Source: a virus
IMG/VR virus record: IMGVR_UViG_3300035661_000380
Location: 1 to 20,224 of that record
Reading direction: 5' to 3' (one strand)
Length of the DNA: 20,224 nucleotides
The notes below the pieces were generated by a model. It did not search any database. It had not been told where the DNA came from and saw nothing but the letters and a program-made list of their open reading frames with translations. Of this stretch, positions 2,232-19,050 are shown one piece after another. A program made the position numbers and the translations under genes. How positions within the stretch are numbered: position 1 is the first letter of the stretch; each line of letters starts with the position of its first letter.

Positions 2232-2663
2232 TCAAAATGGTATTGTATCATCATCCATATCATCAAAGCCATAAGGTTTACGCGCTGCTTGATCTTCCAA
2301 TGGCTTATTTTCAGATTGATCACCATTTGATTTGCTTCCTAACATCTGCATTTTGTCGGCAATAATCTTAGTTGAATATCTCTCAATACCTTCTTTGTCC
2401 GTGTATTTGTCGGTTTTCATACGTCCAGATACAAACACCTGAGAACCTTTTTCTAAATACTTACCACAAATTTCTGCAAGTTTCCCAAATACGGAAACAT
2501 TCACCCATTCAGTCGAATCTTGCTTTTCGCCATTTTTATCTTTCCACTGGCTACCTATTGCGATACTAAAACTAGATATTGCGTCACCGCTTGGCATATA
2601 TCTAGTTTCTACATCCTTACCAAGTCTGCCTATAAAATTACATTGATTTAAGTCGTTTGCCAT
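2232..2663 (-). CDS. ssb: Single-stranded DNA-binding protein (SSB)
   Basis: 143 aa with the classic bacterial or phage SSB layout. The N-terminal OB fold occupies residues 1 to about 108 (NQCNFIGRLGKDVETRYMPS at the start, then TEWVNVSVFGKLAEICGKYL and GSQVFVSGRMKTDKYTDKEG). A flexible linker leads to the acidic tip DDDTIPF, the tail that recruits partner proteins. It coats ssDNA during replication and recombination. It lies just downstream of the YqaJ exonuclease and Bet annealase genes, the usual partners of a phage recombination set. The ribosome binding site AAGGAAAA precedes the ATG. Length is slightly shorter than E. coli SSB (178 aa), as is usual in phages. Confidence 0.95.
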   Translation of the reverse strand: MANDLNQCNFIGRLGKDVETRYMPSGDAISSFSIAIGSQWKDKNGEKQDSTEWVNVSVFGKLAEICGKYLEKGSQVFVSGRMKTDKYTDKEGIERYSTKIIADKMQMLGSKSNGDQSENKPLEDQAARKPYGFDDMDDDTIPF

Positions 2664-2677
2664 TATTTTTCCTTTAG

Positions 2678-3316
2678 TTATGCTGCGTGTTGTAATTTCG
2701 TTAACTTGTCAATCATATCGTCTACCTCAGACAAGAATTTAATAACAGACTGAGTAATTGCCTCTATCCTAGAATCGTCGCACTCGAAGCGAACTATCAT
2801 TAACTGTAGATCAGTCGGCATACGTGGATCAAAACTTACAAAGTCACACCATTTCCTACCAGAGCAAGCCATTTGCCATAACATCTGGTTATGATGTTCA
2901 GTGGGTGCGCCTCCTGAAATTAGCCATTCCATGTGAGTTGATGTGTTCGGACATTTAATCTCGACCATCCCGTCTTCACCAACTAATCCATCAGGTGACG
3001 CGCCTGACATATTTATATACGGATGGTCAATAAAACCTATCTCATGCACCATGTCGCCTGTATAAGCTTCATACGCGGCTCTTGCTAACGGCTCTGCATC
3101 TGTTCCCCATTGCATTGCCGAATTGATAAACGTATCTTGCTTTATACCTGTTAGTCGTTCACATACAAGTTGGGCGCGATAATTCTTACGTGTTGCCGCT
3201 TCCCCGCCTGATTTTAGAACAGCTATTACATCATTTATCTTACTTGCTGTTACCTTACCCAAGCGGCACTCAAACCATTCAGGCGTGCGCTGCTCCATCT
3301 TTGATATTGCATTCAT
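2678..3316 (-). CDS. YqaJ-family viral recombinase / exonuclease
   Basis: 212 aa. The start MEQRTPEWFECRLGKVTASK is the typical beginning of the YqaJ (lambda-exonuclease-like) family, where 'R-x-x-x-W...R-x-x-x-x-T-A-S' is conserved. Catalytic PD-(D/E)XK residues are visible: E75 in GTDAEPLAR, D109 in SGASPDGL and E119-I-K121 in MVEIKCPN, followed by the QMLWQM helix (Q144, Q148). The enzyme resects one strand of dsDNA from an end to give 3' overhangs for the annealase encoded just upstream. The ATG overlaps the stop of bet by ATGA, consistent with coupled synthesis of the two partners. The C-terminal 40 residues are helical. Confidence 0.93.
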   Translation of the reverse strand: MNAISKMEQRTPEWFECRLGKVTASKINDVIAVLKSGGEAATRKNYRAQLVCERLTGIKQDTFINSAMQWGTDAEPLARAAYEAYTGDMVHEIGFIDHPYINMSGASPDGLVGEDGMVEIKCPNTSTHMEWLISGGAPTEHHNQMLWQMACSGRKWCDFVSFDPRMPTDLQLMIVRFECDDSRIEAITQSVIKFLSEVDDMIDKLTKLQHAA

Positions 3317-4209
3317 TTGATCACCTCTACTTTTTCAATATCTATTACAAAATCAGATGAGGCGGCTGTTTCTTTTAGTTCTACGCTATGTTTAGTCCAT
3401 AAAGCAGCTTTGTGTTGTGACTTATCCAACGACTTAAAAGCTGATTCAAGCGCCTTACTTCCGTTTTTTGCAACTGCTTCAAGCAATGGCAATTGCTCAA
3501 TCTCATAATCTTCATAACCATCTGCAATGCTTAATGCTGCTGCGCTGGCTGGCGTTACTTTTGTGTTCACATAAGTAGTCGCGCCGTCATCATAGGTTTT
3601 CCCCTCCATTTCATCGGCGGTAGGTTGTGATCCAAACTCAGGAAAGGCTTTGCGCAATGCCTGCGCTTCTGCGCACTTTGCAATTTGTCCATAAGGGCGT
3701 TTAAGCCACATTGAATTAGGTGTTGCGCTATCCTTGCCTTTTGTTGCGTAGTTTTCTTTCCATATTTCCTTGGCTGAAAATTCAACAATCGTGCCGTTTT
3801 CCATCTGGCGCATTACGATCACTTTGCACCACTTTGGATATGTCACTTTTGCATCGCCTAAACCTTCTGTTACATCGTCTCCAAACTCTGGCTCGCTAAC
3901 CCCAGCGTATTGCCCTGATCGCGCAGCCTGAGTGCGATACAAGCCAATGCCTGGCATTACTACATCTCGCATCGCTTTAATATCATAGCCTTTTGCGTCT
4001 TTTTTTCCTGTTGATGTGTACATTGGAACGATATGAACAGGTTTTTGCATTGGGTCAAGTCCTGACGCTTTGCAATAACTTATTACCAGCTTGATAGATT
4101 CGTCCTGCGCCCCTGGGTAAAGCGAGTTACGCAAAACATTCATCAGTTCAGTTTCGTCCATTGCCATTGCTGGCAAATTCTCTTTTTTAATAACGAGTGA
4201 ATTACTCAT
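3313..4209 (-). CDS. bet: Bet/RecT-family single-strand annealing protein
   Basis: 298 aa. The core matches the phage Bet/RecT annealases: LRNSLYPGAQDESIKLVISY and GLDPMQKPVHIVPMY near residues 26-64, MPGIGLYRTQAARSG around 85-99, and the conserved block WLKRPYGQIAKCAEAQALRK ending in AFPEFG (residues 168-193). The protein anneals complementary strands exposed by the YqaJ nuclease and promotes recombination-dependent replication and repair. The C-terminal hundred residues are variable, as in the family. Four-base ATGA overlaps exist at both ends. Placement with a 5'-3' exonuclease and SSB is the usual three-gene recombination module. Confidence 0.93.
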   Translation of the reverse strand: MSNSLVIKKENLPAMAMDETELMNVLRNSLYPGAQDESIKLVISYCKASGLDPMQKPVHIVPMYTSTGKKDAKGYDIKAMRDVVMPGIGLYRTQAARSGQYAGVSEPEFGDDVTEGLGDAKVTYPKWCKVIVMRQMENGTIVEFSAKEIWKENYATKGKDSATPNSMWLKRPYGQIAKCAEAQALRKAFPEFGSQPTADEMEGKTYDDGATTYVNTKVTPASAAALSIADGYEDYEIEQLPLLEAVAKNGSKALESAFKSLDKSQHKAALWTKHSVELKETAASSDFVIDIEKVEVIK

Positions 4210-4799: not shown

Positions 4800-5006
4800 A
4801 TGGATATATTAGCTAATAAAATGATAGACGCGCTAGGCGGAACTAAAGCTACCGCAAAAATTATGGGGAAATCTGCGCAAGCAGTAAGCAAGTGGCGCAT
4901 TAACTCAATACCGCCTGATTGTCTGGAGCTGATCAGGTACAGAAAACCTAAAATTTACAAGTCTGTTATGGATGAAATGGCTGCGATGAGTGAAGGTGAT
5001 GAGTAA
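4800..5006 (+). CDS. cro: Cro-like helix-turn-helix transcriptional regulator
   Basis: 68 aa. Residues 8-36 (MIDALGGTKATAKIMGKSAQ followed by AVSKWRINS) carry a helix-turn-helix, and IPPDCLELIRYRKP then continues as in small Cro/YdaS-type phage repressors. Such proteins bind operators in the divergent early control region and turn down early transcription. AAGGA lies six bases before the ATG. The stop overlaps the ATG of the replication gene by one base (TAATG), so both are translated from one message. There is no CI-type repressor on the opposite side of the control region, where lambdoid phages normally have one. Confidence 0.85.
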   Translation: MDILANKMIDALGGTKATAKIMGKSAQAVSKWRINSIPPDCLELIRYRKPKIYKSVMDEMAAMSEGDE

Positions 5007-5881
5007 TGGCTACATCTTGGTTGCGACTATGGCACGATATGCCTAATGATCCGAAGTGGAGAACTATTGCTCGAGTATCAAAACAATCGATCCCTGCGGT
5101 AATTTCGGTTTATATGCACCTACTAGTAAACGCATCGAACGCAACCGAACGCGGACGAACGCAAAACGTGTTTAATGAAGATATTGCAAGCGCACTTGAT
5201 TTGGAATGTGATCAGGTAGATGAAATTATCACAGCTATGCAAGGACGTGTTTTGGATGGAGATAAAATTTCTGGCTGGTCTAAAAGACAAGTTGAGCGCG
5301 AAGATGGTGGAGCACAGCGTTCAAAAGCATGGAGAGAGGCTAAAAAATCACCAATTACAGAAAAACCGAACGCAAACGAACGCAACCGAACGCAATACGA
5401 ACGCAAACGAACGCCAGATACAGATACAGATACAGATACAGATACAGATACAGATAAAGAAGATAATAATATATCGTCAGATTCTAACGAACGTACTTGT
5501 TTACGCTTTGACGAATTTTGGAATATCTGGCCTTCAACAGATCGCAAAACCCAAAAAGCGAAATGCTTGGCTAACTGGAAAGCGAAGAATTTAGATTCTA
5601 TAGCTGAAACAATTATTTCTCATATTGCAGTATTGAAAACAACCGAAAAATGGATTTCTGGATTTGAGCCTGCGCCGATGACATACCTGAACGGAAAGCT
5701 TTGGGAGGATGGATTACCAACCATACAGCGACAATCACCTAGAAGGGCATCACCAGAAAATTCCAAAGAAGCTGGAAGGCAAGCGGCAGCGCGGTCAATC
5801 TTCAAAGACGAGCACATTGGACACCTGAACGGAGTGAATCAAAATGAACATGCAATTGACGCAGAATTTACAAGAGTTTGA
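5006..5881 (+). CDS. O-like phage replication initiation protein
   Basis: 291 aa. Residues 1 to about 100 (SWLRLWHDMPNDPKWRTIAR, then NEDIASALDLECDQVDEIIT) resemble the winged-helix N-terminal domain of phage initiators. A low-complexity linker (about 105-165) contains NERNRT/YERKRT and a (DT)n stretch. Residues about 167-235 (FDEFWNIWPSTDRKTQKAKC ... EPAPMTYLNGKLWED) form a C-terminal domain that recurs in phage replication and DnaT-like proteins and may bind the helicase loader. The likely role is recognition of the iterons inside its own gene and recruitment of the P-like protein encoded next. The linker coding region holds the candidate origin. Assignment rests on domain look and gene order. 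Confidence 0.82.
   Translation: MATSWLRLWHDMPNDPKWRTIARVSKQSIPAVISVYMHLLVNASNATERGRTQNVFNEDIASALDLECDQVDEIITAMQGRVLDGDKISGWSKRQVEREDGGAQRSKAWREAKKSPITEKPNANERNRTQYERKRTPDTDTDTDTDTDTDKEDNNISSDSNERTCLRFDEFWNIWPSTDRKTQKAKCLANWKAKNLDSIAETIISHIAVLKTTEKWISGFEPAPMTYLNGKLWEDGLPTIQRQSPRRASPENSKEAGRQAAARSIFKDEHIGHLNGVNQNEHAIDAEFTRV
5136..5476. other. Candidate replication origin: CGAACGC iterons inside the initiator gene
   Basis: The 7-mer CGAACGC occurs three times at 5136, 5146 and 5156 (exact 10-bp period). It occurs five more times at 5367, 5377, 5387, 5398 and 5408 (steps 10, 10, 11, 10). Most copies continue as CGAACGCAA. Because 10 is not a multiple of 3, successive copies fall in different reading frames and encode different residues, so selection is on DNA rather than protein. 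The second array is followed by a hexamer repeat and then an AT-rich stretch (about 5452-5476) that could unwind. This parallels lambda ori, where O-binding iterons beside an AT-rich region lie inside gene O. Confidence 0.65.
5415..5456 (+). repeat. Seven tandem copies of the hexamer CAGATA
   Basis: 42 bp of perfect CAGATA units, in frame with the replication gene, encode the Asp-Thr alternation at residues about 138-150 of the linker. Units are multiples of three bases, so slippage would change linker length without breaking the frame. They sit between the second iteron array and the AT-rich stretch. Confidence 0.95.
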
Positions 5882-6539
5882 TCCACTTCCTGAATCGTGG
5901 ACAGAGCGTATTTTCATGCGGCTGCATGGACGTTTTGGAAATCCATTTTTAGACAAGTACCGTGCTGGAAAGCTAAATGCTTCGGGTGATGATGTTGGTG
6001 TTGAGAATGCCAAAAAGGTATGGGCTGAGGAGCTGGCAGGGTATTCGCCAGGCGAGATTAAACGCGGACTTGTAAAACAATTCACTTATCCGCCAAGCTG
6101 CGATGAATTTAAGTTGGCGTGCCGACCGCCCATCGACAATCGCACAGAATGGGCTGAGGCGTGCGAGCAAATGCGAATCAGGTTACAAGGCAATCAGCGC
6201 GACAGATGGAGTAGGGCAGAGATATACTGGGCGGCGGTGTCGATAGGTCAGTTCGACTTGAATAATCTATCGTGGGAGCAGATCAAGACACGATGGGCTA
6301 ACGCAATCGCAAATGCCAAAACTGACGCAATCCCTGAGTATCGTGTACAGTTGCCAGCGCCAGGTCATACCGTTCCAAACCCAGAGCAAATAGAAAAACA
6401 CGTTAAAGAGCTGAGCGCACGGCTAGGAACTGAAAAACGTGATTACAAAGCATGGGCGCGAGCGATTGTTGAAAAACCTAAAAAATATCATTCTGCGAGT
6501 TTGAAATCAGCTAAAGATGCTTTGCGAACCGATGCTTAA
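5844..6539 (+). CDS. Lambda P-like replication protein (probable helicase loader)
   Basis: 231 aa. The block ERIFMRLHGRFGNPFLDKYR (residues 21-40), then AKKVWAEELAGYSPGEIKRG and FTYPPSCDEFKLACRP (up to about 95), matches the pattern of phage replication protein P relatives: 'F..rl...fG..f...y', a W-x3-L helix, and 'YPPS..EF...C'. Lambda P delivers host DnaB helicase to the O-bound origin, and position directly after the O-like initiator fits. GGAG is ten bases before the ATG, inside the upstream gene (38-base overlap). The basic C-terminus (KKYHSASLKSAKDALR) could contact DNA or helicase. A second in-frame ATG at 5850 is possible. Confidence 0.75.
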   Translation: MNMQLTQNLQEFDPLPESWTERIFMRLHGRFGNPFLDKYRAGKLNASGDDVGVENAKKVWAEELAGYSPGEIKRGLVKQFTYPPSCDEFKLACRPPIDNRTEWAEACEQMRIRLQGNQRDRWSRAEIYWAAVSIGQFDLNNLSWEQIKTRWANAIANAKTDAIPEYRVQLPAPGHTVPNPEQIEKHVKELSARLGTEKRDYKAWARAIVEKPKKYHSASLKSAKDALRTDA

Positions 6540-8337: not shown

Positions 8338-8401
8338 GCAGACATTTAGGTTAGCACATGACGAAGCGATGCGCAGGGCTATGCAGAAGTCTGCATCATG
8401 A
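8330..8401 (+). pseudogene. Truncated duplicate of ninB (first 19 codons conserved)
   Basis: Frame of 23 residues, MSKQTFRLAHDEAMRRAMQKSAS, ending in a TGA that overlaps the methyltransferase ATG. Over the first 57 bases it matches the start of full-length ninB at 9734 at 48 positions; 15 of 19 residues are identical. Similarity stops after codon 19. It is either the relic of a ninB gene broken when the methyltransferase arrived, or a retained leader peptide that now couples translation to the methyltransferase. Confidence 0.75.
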
Positions 8402-9723
8402 GATACGGCTCAGTTTGCTCAGGCATAGAAGCTGCAAGCGTGGCATGGGAGTCGTTAGGATGGAAAGCGTCATTTCTGTCTGAAATAGAAACCTTCCCAC
8501 GTAGAGTATTGGCGCACCACTATCCAAATACCAAGCTACACGGTGATTTTACAACAATAAAGAAAGATGATTATGACCCAATTGAGCTTCTTGTCGGAGG
8601 AACACCATGCCAATCTTTTTCAGTTGCAGGACTTCGAGCAGGATTGGATGATCCGCGTGGCAACCTCATGCTTGAGTTCGGTTCGCTTGCTCGCAGACTT
8701 AATCCCAAATGGCTTGTATGGGAAAACGTGCCTGGTGTCCTGTCAAGTAACAGAGGTAGGGATTTTGGCACCTTTCTCGGGATGTTGGGCGAACTCGGGT
8801 ATGGGTTCGCCTACAGAATTCTTGACGCTCAATACTTCGGAGTGGCACAACGCCGCCGCCGTGTGTTCGTTGTCGGATGTTTTGGAGATTGGAGAAGTGC
8901 AGCAGCGGTACTTTTTGACAGCGAAAGCCTGCGCGGGAATACTCCGCCGAGCCGAGAAGCGGGGCAAAAAATTGCCGGAACATTTAAGGCGTGCGCTGGA
9001 AAAAGTGGCGGATGGTCAAACAGTGTAGATCACGCAGCGGCTGGATATATGCAACCAGTAATCATGGCTACCGGCCAAGCAGGTGCAGAGATAGGGATAG
9101 GGATAGGGATAGGGACAACGCTTAACTGCAATCACGAAGCGCCGATAGCCTGCTATTCACTAGCAGGTAACACAATAGGGCGGAAACCTGAAAATGGGGG
9201 CAACGGTAATGGATATGATGAATCTGGTGTTAGTTACACGCTGACTAAGACAGACCAGCACGCGATTTGCTATCCAATAAATACGCAGATAGCAACACGC
9301 CACGAAGCTATGGGTAAGGGTACTGGAATGGGTATTGGGTTTGAAAGTGACCCTGCATACACATTGCAGGCAGCGCATAGTCACGCTGTTGCTTTTGCGT
9401 TTGACAGTCTAAGCAGCAATTCTATGAAATCAAGAAACCCGATAAGTGGGTGTAATGAAGTGGATGTTTCAAAAACTATAGATACAAGCGGATTAAACCC
9501 ATCATGTAATCAGGGAGGCAATGCAGTTCTTCAAACAATGCAGGTGCGCCGTCTAACCCCAACAGAGTGCGAACGCTTGCAAGGGTTCCCTGATGGTTAC
9601 ACAAATATACCTGGCGCATCTGACACTGGGCGTTACAAAGCGTTAGGTAACTCGATGGCTGTGCCTGTTATGAAATGGATAGGTGAACGCATTCAGGCTG
9701 TAGAAAACACCAACACAAAATAG
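8398..9723 (+). CDS. DNA (cytosine-5-)-methyltransferase
   Basis: 441 aa. Motifs in order: I GSVCSGIEAASVAW (4-17), IV GGTPCQSFSVAG with catalytic C71, VI ENVPGV (109-114), VIII QRRRRVFVVG (151-160), IX RRLTPTECERLQGFP (384-398), X KALGNSMAVPV (414-424). It methylates cytosine C5, probably protecting phage DNA from restriction. Between VIII and IX lie about 220 residues, where the target-recognition domain sits. These include an (IG)n run and several 'TL-x5-HA'-like segments, a repeat build seen in phage enzymes of this type. Codons about 59-210 overlap a second gene in the +1 frame. There is no cognate restriction enzyme nearby. Confidence 0.95.
   Translation: MRYGSVCSGIEAASVAWESLGWKASFLSEIETFPRRVLAHHYPNTKLHGDFTTIKKDDYDPIELLVGGTPCQSFSVAGLRAGLDDPRGNLMLEFGSLARRLNPKWLVWENVPGVLSSNRGRDFGTFLGMLGELGYGFAYRILDAQYFGVAQRRRRVFVVGCFGDWRSAAAVLFDSESLRGNTPPSREAGQKIAGTFKACAGKSGGWSNSVDHAAAGYMQPVIMATGQAGAEIGIGIGIGTTLNCNHEAPIACYSLAGNTIGRKPENGGNGNGYDESGVSYTLTKTDQHAICYPINTQIATRHEAMGKGTGMGIGFESDPAYTLQAAHSHAVAFAFDSLSSNSMKSRNPISGCNEVDVSKTIDTSGLNPSCNQGGNAVLQTMQVRRLTPTECERLQGFPDGYTNIPGASDTGRYKALGNSMAVPVMKWIGERIQAVENTNTK
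8573..9028 (+). CDS. Overlapping phage protein nested in the methyltransferase gene
   Basis: 151 codons in the +1 frame of the methyltransferase. ATGs stand at 8567 and 8573; AGAAAG at 8561-8566 is better spaced for 8573 (MTQLSFLSEEHHANLFQL...). The product shows segments that I recall as a recurring phage protein of unknown function: a LSFL-x-EEHHAN start, the middle piece GMGSPTEFLTLNTSEW, and FLTAKACAGILRRAEKRGK-x-LP near the end. The same DNA reads VLFDSESLRGNTPPSREAG in the methyltransferase, a segment also common in that family, so both frames look constrained. A stretch of about 150 sense codons in a shifted frame also favours a real gene. Family recall is from memory and needs a database check. 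Confidence 0.65.
   Translation: MTQLSFLSEEHHANLFQLQDFEQDWMIRVATSCLSSVRLLADLIPNGLYGKTCLVSCQVTEVGILAPFSGCWANSGMGSPTEFLTLNTSEWHNAAAVCSLSDVLEIGEVQQRYFLTAKACAGILRRAEKRGKKLPEHLRRALEKVADGQTV
9091..9114 (+). repeat. Four tandem copies of the hexamer ATAGGG
   Basis: Perfect units in frame with the methyltransferase encode Ile-Gly four times (residues 232-239) in the variable region before the recognition-domain repeats. Six-base units keep the frame on expansion or loss. Confidence 0.9.
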
Positions 9724-10114: not shown

Positions 10115-10355
10115 GCATAAACACATAGAACGCGTAAAAAATCTATCATGTGGCGTATGTGGAGATGGAGAAACATCAGACGCTCATCATATATTAGAGG
10201 GTGGACGCAGGGTAAGTCACTTTGCAGTTATCCCACTATGCAAATCATGCCATCAGGATAATCATAACGGAATACACGGGCGTAAAGCGATGTGGAATAT
10301 CATGCACAAGACTGAATTGTTAGTGCTGGCGGAAACAATAGAAAGGTTAATGTGA
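10101..10355 (+). CDS. Ref-like HNH nuclease (RecA-dependent nuclease family)
   Basis: 84 aa. C17-x2-C20 (LSCGVCGD), H29-H30 in DAHHILEGGRRVSH, and IPLCKSCHQDNHNGIHG with C47, C50 and H51 make a compact zinc-HNH fold. The arrangement 'CxxC...HHI...G.R.SH...PLC..CH....GIHG' is that of the phage Ref / recombination-enhancement nucleases, where P1 Ref cuts DNA in RecA-dependent fashion. It lies between ninB and a methyltransferase gene, like other recombination genes here. The product lacks the long disordered N-terminus of P1 Ref. Assigned by motif. Confidence 0.75.
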   Translation: MTKSEHKHIERVKNLSCGVCGDGETSDAHHILEGGRRVSHFAVIPLCKSCHQDNHNGIHGRKAMWNIMHKTELLVLAETIERLM

Positions 10356-10852
10356 AAAAAAAGATGGGTTTTACTCATGATGATAGCGGTAAAAATAATG
10401 TTGATTGGTACACGCCAAAATCAATTTTTGACGCATTAGGAATAGAGTTCGATTTAGACCCGTGCCAGCCGATAGGAGGAGTTCCTTGGATACCTGCAAA
10501 GAAATATTATACTGTTGAAGATGATGGACTAATTCAAGATTGGGAAGGCAATGTATGGCTCAACCCACCTTACGGCAAGGAAACAGGTAAATGGCTTAAA
10601 AAGATGGATGGACATAGGAATGGTATTGCCTTATTGTTTTCGCGTACAGATTGCAGGTGGTTTCATGATTACGTTGCTAATGCGGATAGCATCTTGTTCC
10701 TAAAAGGTCGTGTAAAATTTGTTGATGGACTAGGGGTATCAGGAGGTAATGGCGCAGGAAGCGGGTCTATGCTTGTGGCTTGGGGAACAAAAAACGTGCA
10801 CGCGTTAAATAATTGCTCTGATTTGGGAGTAAATATGTATTTTGATGAGTAA
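10352..10852 (+). CDS. Phage DNA N6-adenine methyltransferase
   Basis: 166 aa. Residues 18-22 (DWYTP), FDLDPCQP near 33-40, VWLNPPYGKETGKWL with the catalytic NPPY at 71-74, and GIALLFSRTDCRWFHDYV fit the phage Dam family, in which NPPY is motif IV of adenine-N6 methylation. It likely protects phage DNA from host restriction together with the C5 enzyme. The start is a GTG whose bases overlap the previous stop (GTGA), with AAGG six bases upstream; ATG 10364 is an alternative. No restriction partner is encoded, consistent with an anti-restriction role. Confidence 0.9.
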   Translation: MKKKMGFTHDDSGKNNVDWYTPKSIFDALGIEFDLDPCQPIGGVPWIPAKKYYTVEDDGLIQDWEGNVWLNPPYGKETGKWLKKMDGHRNGIALLFSRTDCRWFHDYVANADSILFLKGRVKFVDGLGVSGGNGAGSGSMLVAWGTKNVHALNNCSDLGVNMYFDE

Positions 10853-17383: not shown

Positions 17384-19050
17384 TGAATACACCAATCATT
17401 AAAACAGCTTCATACGTTGGCACTGGCGCAGCACAAGTAATTCGCATTGGGTTTAAGCCAGACCTATTGCTTATTAAAGGCTCAGGTCAATACGCTAGTT
17501 TTCAGCATGATTATACGTGGGGTGGTGGTCGTGAAGCGTTTGGCAATATAACGCTGTCAGGTTCTGATGGATCTTTATGTTATTTTACAGATGAAGGTTT
17601 TACGCTTAAAACGGACGCAACGAATAACTCATCTGGAGTAACATACCATTATTTAGCGATTTCTGATAACCAAAGCGGTGTCCTTCAGACAGGCAATTAT
17701 AACGGTTATCGGTATCAAACTACTGTCGCGAATGGTGCAAATTCTGACCCAGTAACGCTTGATATTCTCAAAGCAAAACCTGACGCATTTTTCGTAAAAC
17801 GTGATTCTGCTACTCGTCCTGCCGTGTTTGCAAACTCATCATTTGTTAAAAAAGACGGTGCGTATGCTCCCGACCCAACACTGTTAACAGTTAATTCGGA
17901 CGGCACGTTATCACTCAGTACTGACATTTCAGTAAATGAAAACAATGCAATAGATAGCGGTGAAGCGCATAACTTCTTTGCGCTATTTAATAATGGAAAT
18001 TCCTGGTACACAACATCGTATGTCGGTACAGGTTCAGCCTTGAATGTGCCAGTTCCCATAACACCAGTAGCAGCGATTGTAATTCCTAATGCATCAGGTG
18101 CAATGGTATTCAACTGGGGCACAATGGGCGCCAACTCAGCAGATGGCGGAAACACTGCATTAGTCGCAAATAAGATAACGGGTTTCAGTGCTGGCAATAT
18201 CGCTATAGGTACTGATGCGTCAGTTAATACACCTGGTGTAACTTATACAGTATTGTGCTTCGCTGCATCTTCACCACAGCAAATTAGCGCATCAAAAGTT
18301 GCACAGCGTACTGCTATTAGGATGCGTAATCAATCTGGCACGATTAGTCGTGTTGCATGTGGCAGTGACAACTCACTTGGCGTTGCGGGAGCAATTACTC
18401 TGGAATGGATAGGCGAGTTCTCTGGGAATGTAAGCGAGCATGTACTGATGAGCCGAGGTGGCGGAGCATCAACTGGCAGTCGTTCCACCCCAACAAATGG
18501 CTCATTTAACTATGCCATGGCTTACACTGATTCAGCCAACGGCTTAGAAGTTTGCACATCAGACCAGTTTTCTAGCGTAGTGCCAAGCCCTACAGTTACC
18601 GCGTTCAACCGATGGCGCACTGGATGGAAACCGCAATTAGGCAGACGTTATCACTTAATGTTTACGCATGATGGGGTTGATAAATGGCTGATGTACGTAG
18701 ACAGTAAGTTAGTCAACTGGAGGCGTTTTCCTCAGTCCGTCATCGGGTTAAATGGCATCACTAATACAGCAGGACTTGTTATGGGGTTCGGTGCGCGTTA
18801 TGCAAATGGCGCGTGGTATGCATCTCAGAATACGCTGCATGCGCTGGGGCGTGTGTATAACAGGGCGCTTTCTGCTGGTGAAGTAACACGGCGTTACAAC
18901 ATCGGTTTTCTTGGACAGTCTGGGCAGGATATTACCAGCGGATTAGTGGAAGAATGGAAATTTACCGAAGCCACTGGATCAACCGTAGCGGCTACAGTTA
19001 ACGCGGCAAATAACGGCACTATTACTAATGGTGCTTGGGTTAAGCCATGA
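17383..19050 (+). CDS. Large lectin-like virion protein, two repeated domains plus LamG-like C-terminus
   Basis: 555 aa. Residues 7-96 begin TASYVGTGAAQVIRIGFKPD and end VTYHYLAISDN. Residues 208-300 begin TTSYVGTGSALNVPVPITPV and end VTYTVLCFAAS, so this is an internal repeat of one domain of the type now found in many phage fibre proteins. Residues about 325-555 carry an ALGRVYNRALSAGEVTRRYN motif and 'ITLEWIGEF', as in concanavalin-A/LamG-like lectin domains. It may bind sugars on the host cell surface, or decorate the head. It sits between portal and scaffold genes, where a head fibre or decoration fits better than a tail fibre. No catalytic site seen. Confidence 0.75.
   Translation: MNTPIIKTASYVGTGAAQVIRIGFKPDLLLIKGSGQYASFQHDYTWGGGREAFGNITLSGSDGSLCYFTDEGFTLKTDATNNSSGVTYHYLAISDNQSGVLQTGNYNGYRYQTTVANGANSDPVTLDILKAKPDAFFVKRDSATRPAVFANSSFVKKDGAYAPDPTLLTVNSDGTLSLSTDISVNENNAIDSGEAHNFFALFNNGNSWYTTSYVGTGSALNVPVPITPVAAIVIPNASGAMVFNWGTMGANSADGGNTALVANKITGFSAGNIAIGTDASVNTPGVTYTVLCFAASSPQQISASKVAQRTAIRMRNQSGTISRVACGSDNSLGVAGAITLEWIGEFSGNVSEHVLMSRGGGASTGSRSTPTNGSFNYAMAYTDSANGLEVCTSDQFSSVVPSPTVTAFNRWRTGWKPQLGRRYHLMFTHDGVDKWLMYVDSKLVNWRRFPQSVIGLNGITNTAGLVMGFGARYANGAWYASQNTLHALGRVYNRALSAGEVTRRYNIGFLGQSGQDITSGLVEEWKFTEATGSTVAATVNAANNGTITNGAWVKP

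Follow-up and report, generated by a model that had tools for sequence, protein, structure and literature searches.

Two phased iteron arrays within a phage initiator gene as a probable replication origin

We analysed the window, a 20,224-base IMG/VR virus record that carries terminase and head-tail adaptor genes. Two arrays of the heptamer CGAACGC and an AT-rich tract adjoining the second of them lie within the gene of a replication initiator and, judged from the sequence, very probably form the replication origin of this phage. The initial annotation, which had described iterons within an initiator gene as a likely origin, therefore finds support in the sequence evidence. The observations behind this reading are the retention of the repeats at the DNA level, the pairing of two arrays that share their core within each gene, the codon bias of the tract, the predicted fold of the initiator, and the gene neighbourhood. 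The relevant features of the window are the following.

2232-4209, minus strand: divergent recombination genes (SSB, YqaJ exonuclease, RecT annealing protein)
4800-5006, plus strand: small Cro/YdaS-like DNA-binding protein, directly 5' of the initiator gene, in the position of cro in lambda
5006-5881, plus strand: initiator gene, 291 aa (PHROG 3729, PHROG 9474), with predicted winged-helix N-domain, linker and helical C-domain
5136-5162, plus strand: array 1, three CGAACGC iterons, one every 10 bp, in codons 44-53, which encode the loop that joins helices 29-43 and 57-64
5367-5414, plus strand: array 2, five CGAACGC iterons at steps of 10, 10, 11 and 10 bp, disordered linker
5415-5480, plus strand: (GATACA)n GATAAA GAAGATAATAATATATCG, AT-rich hexamers directly after array 2, putative DNA unwinding element
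5844-6539, plus strand: lambda-P-like helicase loader, 231 aa, overlapping the end of the initiator gene

Arrays and AT-rich tract in the window

The CGAACGC copies start on the plus strand at positions 5136, 5146 and 5156 (array 1) and 5367, 5377, 5387, 5398 and 5408 (array 2), exactly as annotated before: eight copies in two arrays with steps of 10, 10 and 10, 10, 11, 10 bp. These are eight of the ten copies in the whole window (shuffled sequences: mean 2.0, maximum 6), and both arrays were recovered independently by Tandem Repeats Finder. A DNA uptake sequence or another genome-wide motif was considered and rejected, since just two stray copies of CGAACGC lie outside the arrays. In a fixed-lag test, none of the 11 other tested genes of the window gave a lag peak, so that they serve as negative controls.

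We then kept the protein fixed and shuffled synonymous codons. In 20,000 such shuffles the gene contained on average 0.71 copies of CGAACGC and never more than five, compared to the eight observed. Therefore, it is the DNA and not the protein that is under retention, as the initial annotation had proposed. The 10-bp autocorrelation also differed from that of synonymous shuffles (P = 0.0016 for array 1 and 5e-5 for array 2). The copies start at codon positions 2, 3, 1 in array 1 and 2, 3, 1, 3, 1 in array 2. Because of this shift, one DNA unit reads NA, ER and RT in turn, which bears out the claim that the repeats encode different residues each time. The spacers between the cores vary within each array (AAC and GGA in array 1; AAA, AAC, AATA and AAA in array 2).

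About 205-210 bp lie between array 1 and array 2 with its adjoining AT-rich tract. The AT-rich patch noted earlier behind the repeats was evident: positions 5415-5485 are 70% AT, and only two 50-bp stretches in the whole window are less stable than 5424-5473. Positions 5415-5460 correspond to (CAGATA)7.7 according to Tandem Repeats Finder. Across the 52 related genes in which a D/T/K/E tract is clear, the GC content at its third codon positions was 0.10, whereas the codons used for these residues in the rest of each gene predict 0.52; every one of the 52 was below expectation. The low third-position GC of the GATAAA/GATACA tract fits an unwinding element; for lambda and SPP1, an AT-rich tract beside iterons is established as such (PMC5043065, PMC6316719). 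A lone AACGAACGT right behind the tract (5487-5495) is possibly a degenerate ninth iteron.

Related genes and alternative readings

About 290 loci were obtained when viral contigs, species genomes and phage records were scanned, and these were reduced to 75 representative genes from phages and prophages of mostly beta- and gamma- and some alphaproteobacteria; these relatives are not independent of one another. At least two copies of one core were present in both the loop (window codons 44-53) and the linker of 64 of the 75 genes, with cores of the CGAACGC type (24 genes), GTCAC (37) or GTAACGC (3). Two different cores never occurred in the same gene (0 of 75), seven genes had one array only (among them L120, L122, L124 and L285), and four had none. 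Genes without an in-gene array include L088 and the distant cyanophage genes L289 and L290. The initial annotation had suggested searching relatives for repeats of another sequence with an unchanged 10-bp step, and exactly such repeats were found, with GTCAC and GTAACGC arrays at the same two places and with 10- or 11-bp steps. The opposite case, a relative that keeps the protein sequence of the linker and lacks the repeats, was not seen among them.

Steps of 10 bp were counted 88 times for CGAACGC, 158 times for GTCAC and 8 times for GTAACGC, and steps of 11 bp 6, 48 and 5 times, respectively, using core motifs picked after viewing the data. Free of this choice, the lag spectrum of repeated 5-mers in 72 genes displayed sharp peaks only near 10/11, 20/21 and 30 bp. 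At lag 10, we counted 338 repeats in the loop versus 32 in synonymous shuffles, and 520 versus 49 in the linker. The loop and linker of one gene share 6-mers above synonymous shuffles and above swapped partners (p = 4e-12 and 2e-9, values that are too small because the genes are related). A match finer than the core class was considered and dropped: relative to partners of the same class, 8-mers gave only a weak excess for CGAACGC (p = 0.03) and none for GTCAC (p = 0.98). Helical phasing between the two arrays was likewise dropped as a firm result. The Rayleigh statistic at 10.5 bp (R 0.35, p about 5e-4) is only suggestive, since related genes inflate it and the spacings spread over 130-319 bp.

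On the poorly resolved tree of the N-domain, the core class changes at least five to six times; a topology with all GTCAC genes in one clade is rejected by a narrow margin only (p-AU 0.0497). Of 44 cases, 29 have the tract 2-5 bp behind the last exact core, and in 10 it follows after 10-14 bp, one further step. Taken together, the same layout with different cores in about 70 distinct related genes points almost certainly to a replication origin.

Phased direct repeats can also be operators and centromeres. The arrays might thus bind the initiator or another phage protein for autoregulation, partition or phage incompatibility and not mark a start of replication, which we regard as unlikely. Besides this general precedent, the initiation site is here a prediction from sequence, and array 1, which lies apart from array 2 and the tract, could serve in handling or regulation. 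But whichever of the three cores a gene carries, the hexamer tract adjoins array 2, and its retention is at the DNA level. Moreover, arrays of at least three cores at 9-12-bp steps occur only in the initiator gene, beside the helicase loader, both in the window and in the three full-length phage records that were compared; the promoter regions of the window are therefore without an array.

We consider it highly improbable that the repeats are a by-product of constraint on the peptides NATERGRTQ, NANERNRTQ and DTDTDT. The loop peptide is fairly conserved within one class (NATERGRT in many genes), and the 6-bp period of the tract is a codon multiple. However, synonymous shuffles destroy the arrays, the copies use all three codon frames in 58 of the 64 genes, and the loop and linker peptides differ completely between core classes while position and step remain constant. 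Furthermore, the codons of the tract end in A or T even where the third-position GC of the gene is 0.76, and the structural model shows loop or disorder for both regions. A frameshifted Serratia gene (L105), whose frameshift could be a sequencing error, retains GTCAC x3 and GATAAA x4. Neutral tandem duplication or slippage is also highly improbable: the copy number of the CAGATA hexamer does vary among close relatives, as slippage would give, but the spacers differ within one array, so that recent copying of the units is out, a slip by 10 bp would shift the frame, and one core occurs at two separate sites.

Some relatives deviate from the layout of the putative origin. L088 and L089 represent the only lineage of Proteobacteria without in-gene arrays that has an intact domain layout; their linker is unrelated. 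In L089, L099 and L101, from a betaproteobacterial MAG, the in-gene arrays are absent and an array is located about 0.5 kb upstream, outside the gene. It consists of 2-4 CGAACGC/CAAACGC copies, one every 10 bp, together with a purine-rich tract, and none of 2000 shuffles of L089 reproduced it. This array may represent an origin that has moved or the remnant of a further gene copy. These intergenic regions (L089:2444-2544, L101:2440-2532 and L099:2428-2506) also contain an exact DnaA box, TTATCCACA, and several copies are present in one bin. In a Pantoea prophage (L123), a stretch that by eye resembles GIY-YIG follows the N-domain and replaces the usual linker; arrays are absent. In L018 (2983-3516; also L015 and L016), an initiator-like N-domain is fused to an HNH endonuclease (PF01844, E 9e-15). 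This fusion gene is located directly upstream of an array-bearing initiator gene, its N-domain is 43-50% identical to those of the cyanophage genes L289 and L290, and its product may cut at or near an origin.

Initiator, gene neighbourhood and known origins

The initiator matched the PHROG 3729 replication initiation protein profile across residues 1-156 (E 5.4e-43) and PHROG 9474 (E 2e-14), and the nearest annotated phage records name its relatives replication protein O, primosomal protein I or phage replisome organizer. An AlphaFold model based on a 54-sequence alignment (mean pLDDT 68, above 90 for most of the N-domain) comprises an N-domain at about residues 16-90, a disordered linker and a helical C-domain (160-236). 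Helices 16-25, 29-43, 57-64 and 68-78, followed by hairpin strands at about 79-88, correspond to a winged helix. According to this model, array 1 codes for a loop between helices, and array 2 and the tract code for the disordered linker. The DNA elements therefore sit where the protein tolerates change. Searches with the whole initiator model against PDB folds gave nothing significant, and sequence searches against PDB chains gave nothing. The protein of the window had no match to Phage_rep_org_N (PF09681/TIGR01714); among the 54 aligned proteins, the best E values were 0.004-0.03 and the curated cut-off was not reached. DnaT-type C-domains were detected in 11-13 of these 54 relatives.

CGAACGC and GTCAC genes are best told apart by alignment columns 68, 31, 66 and 67. 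Three of these four, residues 66-68, map to the beginning of helix 68-78, the putative recognition helix. The link between these residues and the core class is only suggestive, because the class partly follows ancestry.

The neighbouring genes agree in order and content with cro-O-P of lambda. The Cro/YdaS-like protein upstream matched PHROG 8008 (E 3e-9) and, below the curated cut-offs, PF15943 (E 8e-5) and PF14549 (E 2e-4). For the 231-aa protein downstream, the best PDB fold match was lambda P in the DnaB-P complex 9oa1 (E 5.5e-3, prob 0.99). Its sequence similarity to lambda P is weak by BLASTP (25% over 80 aa, E 8e-4), and hhalign gave E 6e-4 over 160 columns with a probability of only 30%. 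In other phages, the neighbour of the initiator is annotated as replication protein P, DnaC-like loader or replicative helicase. Further downstream, the window encodes two separate methyltransferases, a C5-cytosine enzyme (8398-9723), whose gene contains GATAGG x4.3 in frame at 9090-9115, and a Dam-type adenine enzyme (10352-10852; PF05869, E 4e-18).

From these data we infer how the phage might use this origin. The winged-helix N-domain would bind CGAACGC, one core per helical turn. Because the copies recur once per turn, several initiator molecules would be aligned and stacked along one face of the DNA in each array. Bending or looping may bring the two arrays together. The initiator complex would then strain and open the GATACA/AT-rich tract that abuts array 2, and the C-domain would hand over to the P-like loader encoded downstream, so that the host DnaB helicase is delivered.

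GC skew, which the initial annotation had proposed as a check, provided no usable origin signal in the window or in three full-length records, because the minimum of the window near 4.7 kb falls on the switch between divergent genes and the full-length relatives are inconsistent (minima at 34.5 kb, which is 2.4 kb past the end of the gene, or at the record ends). No exact DnaA box (TTATNCACA) is located within 13 kb of the arrays; the sole exact match in the window is at 18852.

Origins inside initiator genes are already classical (lambda O, SPP1 gene 38), and by analogy that of the window appears to work like them. Similarity to lambda ori had been noted before; it holds for the layout, but not for descent, iteron type or number of arrays. 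As in ori-lambda and in lambdoid and Stx phages, the iterons are located in the middle of the initiator coding sequence and are followed directly by an AT-rich, presumably meltable tract (PMC5043065, PMC7466680), with a P-type loader as the next gene and a cro-type gene upstream. However, lambda has a single array of four iterons (six in Stx phages) of 18-19 bp, which are inverted repeats, each bound by an O dimer, at uneven steps of 20-24 bp. The window instead contains direct repeats of 7-bp non-palindromic cores at 10-bp steps in two arrays, one of them within the coding sequence of the DNA-binding domain. Comparison of the N-domain profile with lambda O by hhalign detected no relation (probability 0.1, E 0.79). 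Lambda O gave no peak in the fixed-lag test, since its iterons are unevenly spaced, and therefore does not serve as a positive control.

By layout, oriL in gene 38 of the B. subtilis phage SPP1 is also comparable: direct repeats and an AT-rich DUE lie inside the gene of the replisome organizer gp38, alongside the helicase loader gp39 (PMC6316719). SPP1 differs in having a second, distant origin, oriR. The iteron plasmids RK2, P1, R6K and pSC101 share helically phased direct repeats beside an AT-rich region (PMC5043065), but their origins contain DnaA sites, whereas the arrays of the window have no DnaA box nearby and lie within the initiator gene. In a search of open-access literature, we found no description of the origin of this initiator family. 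On balance, we favour the view that a split origin in the coding sequence of the initiator, with arrays that change their core together with the DNA-binding domain, is widespread and undescribed in this literature.

Wider occurrence and the Rac prophage

The replication origins of most phages are unmapped; here, one would be recognisable from sequence in some 70 different initiator genes, carried by phages and prophages of proteobacteria. The natural cores with their matching initiators provide a lock-and-key set for finding the residues that read each iteron, and the core classes would predict which prophages can or cannot cross-replicate. The gene is an example of a second, DNA-level message carried across all reading frames, and the odd linkers RTQTNANER and DTDTDT/DKDKDK would be explained as DNA elements and not as protein features.

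A similar layout was found with another N-domain. In L294 and L295, the downstream gene of the window and the C-terminal tail of the initiator are kept, and the N-domain is DUF1376 (PF07120). Between L294:2172-3035 and window:5006-5881, the last ~35 residues and the next gene are nearly identical, a clean module swap inside one gene. The linker of L294/L295 contains, as in the window, repeats and then a tract, namely [CG]AACGC at 11-bp steps running into (ACCAAT)n. In contrast to the window, the DUF1376 proteins, which include YdaU of the Rac prophage of E. coli K-12, belong to another N-domain family, have an 11-12-bp step, and only a linker array was seen. In 42 DUF1376 linkers, the lag excess was at 11 and 12 bp (183 versus 29 and 132 versus 43). 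If the split-origin reading is true, the origins of many unstudied phages could therefore be readable from sequence. YdaU itself was negative in the lag test. The linker of the DUF1376 protein encoded by ydaU (L303:5120-5977) contains TGTTCAAAC-like copies and a AATAAAGATACAGATAAAGAT tract, and from this sequence it is a candidate for the site of Rac oriJ.
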